From assembly GCA_015067895.1 (NCBI GenBank), contig SVLP01000001.1, positions 124,001 to 188,000 on the forward strand: a stretch of DNA of 64,000 bases, written 5' to 3'. Made by a program: the position numbers and the translations under genes. The stretch comes from Oscillospiraceae bacterium (lineage in GTDB: Bacteria; Bacillota_A; Clostridia; Oscillospirales; Oscillospiraceae). The notes below the pieces were generated by a model that was not told where the DNA came from, searched no databases, and saw only the letters and a list, made by a program, of their open reading frames with translations. Shown piece by piece: positions 32,176 through 34,389 of this stretch (the first letter of the stretch is position 1; every line of letters begins with the position of its first letter).

Positions 32176-32214
32176 GTGACCATTCTGTGAAGAGACTGTA
32201 AAAACAGGAATAAG

Positions 32215-32258
32215 GAACCATCCGTTCAAGAAATTGTAACGGATGGTTCTTTTTTTTG
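32215..32258 (+). terminator. Terminator of galK-galT
   Basis: GAACCATCCGTT and AACGGATGGTTC with an 11-base loop, then eight T. It isolates galT from the peptide cassette downstream. Confidence 0.92.
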
Positions 32259-32410
32259 TCAAATCCGGCGGGTAAGATACCCCCATCGATCCGCTGAGGT
32301 CGATTGACAGGCTGATAGAAAACACGCCACCCCTTCGGCATTCCTGCCGATCCATATATGCCCCGGCGGTGGGCCTGACCGCCAATTGAAACGAAAGGAG
32401 TTTTGCCAAT

Positions 32411-32494
32411 ATGAAGAAGATCCTGAAGCTGCTGGTGCAGGGTATGAGCAATTGCTACACCTCTGCTCTGGACAACTATTACATGATCCATTGA
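32411..32494 (+). CDS. Small peptide, copy 1 (27 residues)
   Basis: This short gene follows a strong AAAGGAG site by 11 bases. The peptide starts with a cationic amphipathic stretch MKKILKLLVQGMS, then NCYTS, then ALDNYY, and ends MIH. Copy 2 shares the first 13 residues exactly and the ALDNYY block, while the five residues between and the last three differ. That pattern of fixed N-terminal half and variable C-terminal half resembles a leader-plus-core peptide or a signalling peptide. I recognise no known family. No modification enzyme, transporter or peptide receptor lies beside it; an ECF sigma factor gene begins 445 bases downstream. Confidence 0.7.
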   Translation: MKKILKLLVQGMSNCYTSALDNYYMIH

Positions 32495-32573
32495 TCGTGC
32501 AGTCCAAACAGCAAACCGTATATGCCCCGGCGGTGGGCTTGACCGCCAATCGAAACGAAAGGAGTTTTGCCCC

Positions 32574-32657
32574 ATGAAGAAGATCCTGAAGCTGCTGGTG
32601 CAGGGTATGAGCTATGGCTACTATCCCGCTCTGGACAACTACTACGCCATTGGCTGA
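32574..32657 (+). CDS. Small peptide, copy 2 (27 residues)
   Basis: This is the second member of the tandem pair, preceded by the same hairpin and AAAGGAG site (10-base spacing). It reads MKKILKLLVQGMS, then YGYYP, then ALDNYY, and ends AIG. It is rich in Tyr (five of 27), with no Cys, whereas copy 1 has one Cys. The exact conservation of frame, length, start context and stop position between the copies argues that both are translated. There is no signal peptide of normal length, so export, if any, would need another route. Function unknown. Confidence 0.72.
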   Translation: MKKILKLLVQGMSYGYYPALDNYYAIG

Positions 32658-32680
32658 TAAATATCAAATTGTAGAAACCC

Positions 32681-32842
32681 CTTGCCTCCCCCATTTATGG
32701 GGGAGGTGGCCGAGCGAAGCGAGGTCGGAGGGGGTCTGCCCGCTTTTCGCAGAAAAGCGGGCATTTTCGCATATTTGCAAAGCAAATATGCGGACTCCCC
32801 CCTGGCCTGCGGCCATCCCCCCTCATAAATGCGGGGGGCAAG
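32681..32842. repeat. Intergenic palindromic repeat, family A (full copy)
   Basis: This 162-base element begins CTTGCCTCCCCCATTTA and ends GGGGGGCAAG. The interior has GGTGGCCGAGCGAAGCGAGG, a hairpin of CCCGCTTTTC/GAAAAGCGGG, and a second hairpin on GCATATTTGC/GCAAATATGC. It matches the copy at 49129 closely, including the flanking AAAGGAAGCT. Confidence 0.88.
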
Positions 32843-32907
32843 AAAGGAAGCTTTTTCAAAGGTCGTGCCGGTTTTTTTGTGACCTGTGCGATCCTTTCTG
32901 CGTCTGG

Positions 32908-32938: not shown

Positions 32939-33472
32939 ATGGAGGACGGGAAGATCATCGAGCTTTATTTTGACCGGTCGGAGTCGGCCATTGCGGAGAC
33001 GGAGCGGAAATACGGACGCTACTGCCGCGCCATTGCCGGGCGCATTTTGTCCAATGATGCCGATGCGGAGGAATGCGTCAGCGACACCTGGCTCCGGGCC
33101 TGGAACGCCATGCCGCCCAACCGGCCGGAGCGGCTGGGGGCGTATCTGGGGCGCATCACCCGGAATCTGGCTCTGGATCGGCTGCGCGCGGACAAGGGTG
33201 CGGTGCAGGAGGAGCTGGGCGAGTGCCTGTCGGCGGGAGACCCCACGGCGGCGATGGTGGATCGGGTGGTGCTGACGGAGGCACTGAACCGGTTCCTGGC
33301 GGGACTGCCGGCGAAGCGGCGGAAGCTTTTCCTGCGGCGGTACTGGTATTTTTCCACCGTGGAGGAGCTGGCCCGGGACTTTGGTATGAGTCAGAGCAAC
33401 GTGAAGATGACCCTGCTGCGGCTGCGGCGGGAATTGAAGGAGCAACTGAACCAGGAGGGGATCGAACCATGA
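32939..33472 (+). CDS. ECF-type RNA polymerase sigma factor
   Basis: This 177-residue sigma-70-family factor has region 2 at about residues 20-85 (NDADAEECVSDTWLRAWNAMP, then ERLGAYLGRITRNLALDRLR). Region 4 is at about residues 120-170 (LAGLPAKRRKLFLRRYWYFSTVEELARDFGMSQSNVKMTLLRLRREL), with a clear helix-turn-helix. There is no region 1 or 3, as expected for ECF factors. The start at 32939 follows AAAGGAGG; the longer frame upstream has no ribosome site. The stop overlaps the start of the next gene (ATGA), a probable membrane anti-sigma factor. The stimulus is unknown. Confidence 0.92.
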   Translation: MEDGKIIELYFDRSESAIAETERKYGRYCRAIAGRILSNDADAEECVSDTWLRAWNAMPPNRPERLGAYLGRITRNLALDRLRADKGAVQEELGECLSAGDPTAAMVDRVVLTEALNRFLAGLPAKRRKLFLRRYWYFSTVEELARDFGMSQSNVKMTLLRLRRELKEQLNQEGIEP

Positions 33473-34389
33473 ACGAAAAAGACATTCTCTACGCATTGAC
33501 GGATATCCGGGCGGACTTCATCCGGGAGGCCGCCCCCGTCCGGCGCAGGCCTGCCCGGCGGGTGCTGATGACGGCGGTGGCGGCATCGCTGGCTCTGCTG
33601 CTGATGGGCGCGGGCATCATCTATGGCGACAGCATCCAAAGCTGGATGGACGGGCGGTGGAGCCGGGAAAACGGCAAGACCATGAGCCAGGGGCAGGCCG
33701 CGCTGGTGGATGCCATGAGCCAGGAGATCGGGCTGTCGGAGACCATCGGAACGATCACCGTGGATGTGGATTCTGCGATTTTTGAGGATCGGGGATTCCG
33801 GATCCTGGTGCGGGTCAGGGGACGGCAGTTTGGCCATGGCGATGGTGTCTGCTTTGACCGCTGGAGCATGGAGCTGGAGCCGGATCCCACCACCGGCATG
33901 GGTCACGGACGGGGATGGGAGCATGCGGGCTTTGACGGCGACGGCTCCTGGCTGCTGTTTTTCCGGTGCGATTGGGATCAGGGGAGACGGCCGGAGGAGC
34001 CCTTTACGGTGCGGCTGGGCATGTCCGATCTGATCCTGACCGGCGCGGGCGGCGAGACGGTGGAGACCGTCCAGGCGGGCAGCTGGGAGTTTGAATTCCC
34101 GCTGGAGGTCACCGGTGTGCCGGAGCCCATCGCCCTGCCCGACTGCACCGTGAAAACAGAGACGGGCGCGGAGCTGGAGCTGAGAAACCTGATGCTCTAC
34201 AGTACGGGCCTTACCTACGAAAAGACGGGAGACGGGGACGTTGCGGTGACTGTCCTTCTGGAGGACGGCAGCTCCATCGATGCCACCCTGGGCATCGGGG
34301 ACAGCCAATGGTGGGATGTGCCCGTGGATCCGGCACAGGTGCGTGCCCTGCGGATCGGGGAGACGACCATCGAGGTGCCCGAAGGATAA
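33469..34389 (+). CDS. Probable anti-sigma factor, membrane-anchored (DUF4179-like)
   Basis: This 306-residue protein has a short cytoplasmic N-terminus (ILYALTDIRADFIREAAP), a basic stretch, and one membrane helix at about residues 30-48 (VLMTAVAASLALLLMGAG). A large extracellular beta-rich domain follows. The arrangement and 4-base overlap with the ECF sigma gene are those of Clostridial sigma/anti-sigma pairs whose extracellular domains carry DUF4179. The extracellular part includes DVDSAIFEDRGFRILVRVRG and ends with the IGETTIEV strand. It would hold the sigma factor at the membrane until a signal is sensed. The role is inferred mainly from context. Confidence 0.78.
   Translation: MNEKDILYALTDIRADFIREAAPVRRRPARRVLMTAVAASLALLLMGAGIIYGDSIQSWMDGRWSRENGKTMSQGQAALVDAMSQEIGLSETIGTITVDVDSAIFEDRGFRILVRVRGRQFGHGDGVCFDRWSMELEPDPTTGMGHGRGWEHAGFDGDGSWLLFFRCDWDQGRRPEEPFTVRLGMSDLILTGAGGETVETVQAGSWEFEFPLEVTGVPEPIALPDCTVKTETGAELELRNLMLYSTGLTYEKTGDGDVAVTVLLEDGSSIDATLGIGDSQWWDVPVDPAQVRALRIGETTIEVPEG

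Follow-up and report, generated by a model that had tools for sequence, protein, structure and literature searches.

The 64,000-nucleotide stretch of an Oscillospiraceae genome analysed here (the window) carries two very short open reading frames in tandem behind galT, and the locus raises the question of whether these are genes and, if so, what their products might do. A first-pass annotation had described tandem 27-codon ORFs, each behind a common hairpin and Shine-Dalgarno sequence, and had taken them for members of a new peptide family in which the N-terminal half is fixed and a Tyr-rich tail is diversified. The physical layout is confirmed by our analysis, and the interpretation of the two halves has to be revised.

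Two small genes and their flanking signals

The repeated features of the locus are as follows.

32360..32383, + strand: RNA element, copy 1 (GCCC 32360-32363; stem GGCGGT 32365-32370 / ACCGCC 32378-32383; loop GGGC 32371-32374)
32396..32400, + strand: Shine-Dalgarno AGGAG, copy 1
32411..32494, + strand: peptide gene 1, MKKILKLLVQGMSNCYTSALDNYYMIH (ORF list, repeat search, codon comparison)
32524..32547, + strand: RNA element, copy 2 (GCCC 32524-32527; stem 32529-32534 / 32542-32547; loop GGGC 32535-32538)
32560..32564, + strand: Shine-Dalgarno AGGAG, copy 2
32574..32657, + strand: peptide gene 2, MKKILKLLVQGMSYGYYPALDNYYAIG (ORF list, repeat search, codon comparison)

Each ORF is exactly 27 codons (84 nt) long. 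The first 72 nt of the pair are 89% identical without gaps at an offset of 163 nt, and the 56 nt of 5' flank (32352-32407 and 32516-32571) are 95% identical at an offset of 164 nt, in agreement with the copy spacing of about 164 bp originally proposed. Also as described, both hairpins have the stem GGCGGT/ACCGCC and differ by a single loop base, and the DNA encoding residues 1-13 is identical (39/39 nt), with all 15 differences falling within codons 14-27; the statement that residues 14-18 differ holds for four of them, residue 16 being Tyr in each. Identity over the first 39 nt would point to recent duplication or gene conversion rather than to a fixed leader. Two copies in one window that differ at 15 positions, nonsynonymous codon changes outnumbering synonymous ones, might in themselves be put down to a non-functional duplication or a sequence artefact, but this explanation is contradicted by the six other genomes, the covarying RNA and the synonymous paralogue divergence described below, and we regard it as extremely improbable. 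Judged by these comparisons, the window pair is more than a chance duplication.

The RNA element precedes 12 of the 20 ORFs found in the window and six related genomes. Over these 12 copies, with the alignment rows split by hand, 71 of 72 stem pairs form (shuffled mean 50.7), a value equalled by 0 of 100000 shuffles in which the arms were dealt anew and corresponding to P 7e-5 for the 9 distinct arm pairs. In the uncorrected machine alignment 90.8% of stem cells pair, against a shuffled mean of 80.0, and the stem covariation score is 0.402, compared with 0.203 for shuffles and a maximum of 0.236 when slid; the covariation shuffles do not correct for kinship of the copies, and two of the five covariation measures (both-sides-changed pairs and further pair types) did not rise above shuffles. 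Hairpin stability in the window is ordinary (z about 0 vs shuffles), so that folding energy alone lends no support and the support comes from covariation in the relatives. By this pairing pattern the hairpin is a conserved element. In helix 1, where GCCC faces the loop GGGC, 47 of 48 pairs form and there is hardly any variation, so it is complementarity that suggests a possible H-type pseudoknot. An mRNA pseudoknot next to the ribosome site is known from the phage T4 gene 32 leader, which the arrays resemble in having a small pseudoknot-like fold upstream of the Shine-Dalgarno sequence. Unlike that leader, the array element is repeated before successive ORFs and finds no Rfam match: the whole window gave none at gathering score, and the sub-threshold matches, in the window stretch and in five loci of the relatives, fall outside the RNA elements.

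Three further features lie between galT and the first copy.

32209..32255, + strand: probable terminator behind galT, an inverted repeat and T run (arms 32209-32226 / 32238-32255)
32273..32278, + strand: possible -10 TAAGAT of the array promoter (inferred by eye)
32282..32328, + strand: conserved 5' leader CCCATCGA...TTGACAGGCTGATAGAAAACACGCC (25-mer kept in array carriers; possible hairpin 32285-32304)

The terminator that had been placed between galT and copy 1 is represented by the inverted repeat and its T run (18-nt arms, 89% complementary, 11 nt between them), but it is unlisted in a terminator scan limited to loops of 3-8. The upstream region can be aligned in all seven loci (the window and six genomes), and by eye TAAGAT, TAGAAT or TAGTAT stands directly before CCCATCGA in each of them; the promoter scan did not report the TAAGAT site, and no -35 was identified. 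All 7 pairs of the possible leader hairpin can form in the window, where the predicted fold contains it. The CCCATCGA...TTGACAGGC hairpin is possible in 6/6 loci having both parts, with UA, UG, CG and AU at its sixth position across loci; it appears in the predicted fold of five loci, with the register shifted by one in G1099, and only in G1108 is the leader folding energy out of the ordinary (z -0.7 to -2.7). Together these features support a small transcription unit, in which a conserved upstream region and leader are followed by two short genes, each preceded by a conserved, structured RNA element and by a Shine-Dalgarno sequence that is strong.

Several other signals were seen around the arrays. 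The promoter scan of G1090 and G1163 reported TTGACA with CATATT at 18 nt spacing (10/12 matches); TTGACA in the leader, a possible -35, was kept outside the main model, the scan giving no such match in the window, G1099 or G1108. By eye, the aligned region of all seven loci has GTTCA-type boxes farther 5' than the possible -10, and repeated boxes of the GTTCAC/GTTAAC type, possibly operator sites, were noticed ahead of the arrays in L118, L150, L151, L173 and L121. On the minus strand of the window a promoter-like site at 32262-32233 (11/12 consensus matches) is aimed from the array into the galT 3' end, and by eye G1096 does not preserve the -35 hexamer of this site. A long imperfect palindrome (32680-32843) adjoins peptide gene 2 on its 3' side, and the predicted fold of 32670-32819 is much more stable than those of shuffled sequences (z -6.9).

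Occurrence and gene neighbourhood of the arrays

Related arrays were sought with the RNA-element pattern over 136 genomes of the genus to which the nearest relatives found belong, with 70 loci examined (some coincident), and then with a covariance model, which also covered the pattern matches outside the examined loci. Other genomes do carry the unit, a check that the earlier annotation had proposed together with one of copy number: clear members occur in 6 of the 136 (G1090, G1096, G1099, G1108, G1163, G1185), where the conserved upstream region and 5' leader are followed by 1-5 small ORFs, giving 20 ORFs of 19-35 codons when the window is included. With its poor ribosome site, the third ORF of G1185 is a doubtful member. 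The pattern was positive in 55 genus genomes, most of them judged to be chance; the 70 examined loci showed a small ORF behind a complementary stem in five genomes only, and at a few other pattern loci short frames followed loose ribosome-site matches without such a stem. The covariance model gave 10 matches in the genus at E < 1e-5, the next best being 0.0057, and at E up to 1 it matched something in 35/136 genomes, which is chance level. In a family sample of 118 it returned G1099 and otherwise six weak matches, and no array was present at the weak matches inspected in the genus (6) or the family (6, about 170 nt each). The leader 25-mer TTGACAGGCTRATANARAACACGCC has an exact match in 5/136 genus genomes, every one an array carrier; the leader of the G1185 array has diverged, and G1189 shows a 3-mismatch match and no array. 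In a family sample of 200 the 25-mer was found only in G1099 and at one 3-mismatch site in a different setting. Array presence is patchy, and the count is a lower bound because ORFs without the RNA element escape.

The genome of the window was placed by its ThrS and GalT. The best ThrS identity is 71% in a class sample (291 genomes) and 86% in an order sample (394), and GalT identity in a genus sample (101 genomes) is 91% for G1096 and G1113 and 84% for G1099. Behind galT of G1099, the element TTGACAGGCTAATACAGAACACGCC, also present in the window, precedes five small ORFs, and G1096, whose contig starts in the last galT codons, carries a single copy, MKKIVKLLLKAMSYGYYPELNNVSHMQ. G1113, equally close by GalT, has a hairpin and T run with no array in the stretch viewed and no leader element within 1500 nt. 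Among 30 galT loci listed, one (L071) has the leader element downstream, and L069 has only 120 nt of sequence there.

Searches farther afield returned no arrays. In a viral collection, exact patterns for the N-terminal codons, hairpin, ribosome-site region and leader 25-mer, as well as a gapped hairpin, gave 0 matches each; phage and plasmid similarity searches gave only 25-35 nt pieces, and E. coli genomes nothing. A degenerate N-terminal pattern, which would miss G1096 with its different fifth codon, had 2 matches in representative genomes, and these were taken as chance because those stretches hold no comparable small ORF. In one family, DNA searches at E up to 1 matched 81 of 87 genomes, of which 20 loci were inspected; in the right family, at E up to 0.01 and with only 2 candidates scored per genome, 55 of 400 genomes matched, and 30 loci were inspected. 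These were ribosome-site lookalikes and within-gene matches, with enolase leaders among them. In enolase genes of the wider family (L033-L038, L040, L053; the start of one confirmed by Pfam, the others identified by eye), CGAAAGGAG and the start codon are immediately preceded by a hairpin-like stretch, a layout like that of the cassette leader with a different stem. Since these enolase leaders have CGAAAGGAGTTTT and a hairpin in common, ACGAAAGGAG is here ordinary translation start context and was dropped as a special signal.

The arrays sit behind galT in the window, G1096 and G1099 and elsewhere in G1090 and G1185; that of G1108 lies between a putative esterase and an aminoacyl-tRNA-editing protein gene, and that of G1163 occupies, by eye, the corresponding place, with an aminoacyl-tRNA-editing protein also nearby. 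The window array has GalK, GalT, an ECF sigma factor and ThrS as neighbours, and Pfam assigns ABC-transporter parts near the G1163 array, a DctM transporter and an AraC-type response regulator near that of G1185, FeoB and DUF5714 near that of G1090, and a flippase-like protein near that of G1099. No one of these neighbours recurs at every array. The transporters near three arrays look ordinary, and no transport or immunity gene is common to the arrays among ten neighbours searched against Pfam and the window genes. Downstream in the window (32939-34386, array strand) the ECF sigma gene precedes a gene whose DUF4179 match stays under the cut-off and which may encode the anti-sigma partner; in G1185 the gene after the array on the same strand (L201:6272-7207, minus strand) encodes the response regulator with the AraC-type domain.

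Short ORFs in a structured leader, with a same-strand regulator downstream in the window (ECF sigma) and G1185 (response regulator), could be leader peptides (uORFs) that regulate the downstream gene by their translation. Evidence against leader peptides is that in G1096, G1099, G1108 and G1163 the first ORF downstream to reach 100 codons with a good codon score lies on the opposite strand, and that the arrays of G1090 and G1099 have terminator-like sites behind them; directly behind the arrays of the window, G1108 and G1163 the scan found none on the array strand. We consider regulation of this kind very improbable.

Coding evidence and properties of the peptides

Codon differences between duplicated ORFs, counted over alignable stretches only, argue for translation. 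G1090 copies 2/3 differ by 5 synonymous codons and 1 nonsynonymous codon over 25, and in G1099 the counts are 6 and 0 over 15 codons for copies 2/3, 10 and 2 over 18 for copies 2/4, and 6 and 3 over 14 for copies 3/4. For the two 2/3 pairs together, 11 of 12 nucleotide differences fall at third positions (binomial P 5e-5). This nearly exclusively synonymous divergence supports purifying selection on a translated product, and the 1-5 genes per array in the relatives would accordingly be selected as proteins. Elsewhere the balance is different, with 2 synonymous and 6 nonsynonymous codon differences in the window pair, 4 to 6 and 3 to 10 between the window copies and G1096, and 3 and 7 between G1108 and G1163. 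Positive selection on the tails was considered and found no evidence (window pair dN 0.16, dS 0.45).

The proposal of a new peptide family stands, given the six carrier genomes, the synonymous paralogue divergence and the lack of any family-library match. Neither window peptide matches Pfam, NCBIfam or PHROGs at E up to 10, and a PDB search with peptide 2 gave nothing at E up to 10; among the relatives, nine peptides searched against Pfam gave a single sub-threshold match (SpdB, E 0.049, below cut-off) and ten searched against NCBIfam gave none. A full-text literature search with peptide words and small-ORF arrays with hairpins or pseudoknots returned no title or abstract describing such arrays, and passages of PMC6429828 contain no description of them. 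Judged by literature titles and abstracts and by family libraries, the peptide family is apparently undescribed.

The fixed N-terminal half with its diversified Tyr-rich tail does not survive comparison with the relatives. G1096 differs from the window in both halves (MKKIVKLLLKAMS-YGYYPELNNVSHMQ), the N-terminal half is also variable in the other relatives, and Tyr-rich tails are rare. Because YGYYP is common to copy 2 and G1096, copy 1 would be the changed copy, and it looks derived relative to copy 2. These comparisons bear on the idea that the ORFs encode peptide signals or modified-peptide precursors of pheromone or RiPP-like type, which would fit the identical N-terminal halves and different tails of the window pair and the AraC-type response regulator after the G1185 array. 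The conserved leader sequence of such precursors is not seen, however, the N-terminal half being unconserved outside the window; by eye the 20 peptides have no cleavage motif in common, and the precursor-like picture loses further ground in that no modification enzyme, peptidase or single transporter type is common to the arrays among the genes examined. We regard signals or precursors as unlikely.

In their physical properties half of the peptides stand out as amphipathic, and the set is not strongly hydrophobic. The 18-residue hydrophobic moment exceeds 95% of a peptide's own shuffles in 10 of 20 cases (combined P 9e-9 for the whole set and 1e-7 after removal of 3 near-duplicates), and the remaining 10 are not significantly amphipathic. 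Net charge ranges from -1 to +4, the first decapeptide being positive in 17/20 and the last 13 residues neutral or negative in 19/20. As a rule of thumb, a transmembrane span requires a hydropathy of 1.6 over 19 residues; the best 19-residue values here run from -0.53 to 1.50 and stay below 0.9 in 18/20.

The hydropathy values bear directly on whether the array could be one of type I toxin-antitoxin genes, with small toxic peptides repressed by RNA. Such tandem arrays exist, and PMC8309996 describes very short ORFs in tandem copies with a structured 5' region by the ribosome site for ZorO, Ibs and Ldr, a layout the present arrays match with their very short tandem ORFs and structured leader. 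Unlike these toxins, the array peptides are not strongly hydrophobic, and all 20 fall short of the level of a transmembrane helix. Weak minus-strand promoter-like sites (9/12) that face the array, as an antisense RNA would demand, occur in 2 of 5 loci scanned (G1090, L151 2301-2272; G1099, L118 2067-2038), but the window and the stretches scanned in G1108 and G1163 showed none, and shuffles alone yield 0.5-1.3 such sites per stretch. A toxin array is, in our estimate, quite unlikely.

More serious is the possibility that these are small proteins with a regulatory or accessory role inside the cell, each docking on and tuning a membrane protein or enzyme, with paralogues for several partners. 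Their length, amphipathic helix, good Shine-Dalgarno sequences and purifying selection between some paralogues would all fit, as would the lack of a transport gene common to the arrays; patchiness (6/136) and strong between-species divergence, on the other hand, would be unusual for a fixed partner. We consider this role doubtful, if worth keeping in mind.

A proposed function and systems of similar design

The explanation we favour, tentatively and at a little under an even chance, is that the arrays encode co-expressed, unprocessed amphipathic peptides that are membrane-active or act at surfaces, a function we infer from their sequences. Unprocessed amphipathic helices are favoured by the amphipathicity of 10/20 peptides together with the fact that no peptide reaches a hydropathy of 1.6. 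A regulated promoter would give one transcript of the whole array, on which the RNA element may shield the 5' side of the ORF behind it from degradation or set the usage of its ribosome site, so that several peptides would be produced together at high level. The finished products would be unprocessed amphipathic helices of about 25 residues acting at membranes or surfaces, either after export without a signal peptide or by contact with the cell's own membrane, in a manner perhaps like that of phenol-soluble modulins or leaderless bacteriocins.

By analogy, these are the two systems that the arrays resemble most in design, and we claim membership in neither. Phenol-soluble modulins of staphylococci, such as those of the psm-alpha operon, are short amphipathic helical peptides made from an operon without a signal peptide, according to PMC2712073. 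The likeness, drawn by description and not by sequence, would lie in short amphipathic peptides from tandem genes, amphipathicity exceeding shuffles at 0.05 in only 10/20 array peptides; array ORFs of 19-35 codons with no common cleavage motif by eye may be set beside the missing signal peptide of the modulins. Unlike modulin genes, the arrays have an RNA element before many ORFs and a common leader. Leaderless bacteriocins, according to PMC11580447, are active as translated and can have multiple core peptides per cluster, and the arrays would be analogous to the multi-peptide type in their several peptides per cluster. The array peptides are shorter than aureocin A53 (51 residues; PMC11580447) and have a charge of at most +4, and whereas leaderless bacteriocin clusters include a membrane-associated immunity or transport protein, the arrays have no membrane-protein gene in common among the neighbours examined.

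In broader terms, the arrays may constitute an undescribed peptide system, possible in our view but short of an even chance, in which a regulated operon with a structured leader and repeated pseudoknots before successive ORFs would control fast-evolving secreted or membrane-active miniproteins. If this is true, the peptide family and the two RNA motifs are all new. At 84 nt, genes are shorter than gene finders usually accept, so annotation can easily overlook arrays of this kind; their repeated RNA element offers a precise covariance-model handle for finding them genome-wide. Sequence turnover and patchy presence would fit involvement in competition or in behaviour at surfaces better than a housekeeping function, and if the peptides are secreted or membrane-active, they would be candidate mediators of either in these bacteria.
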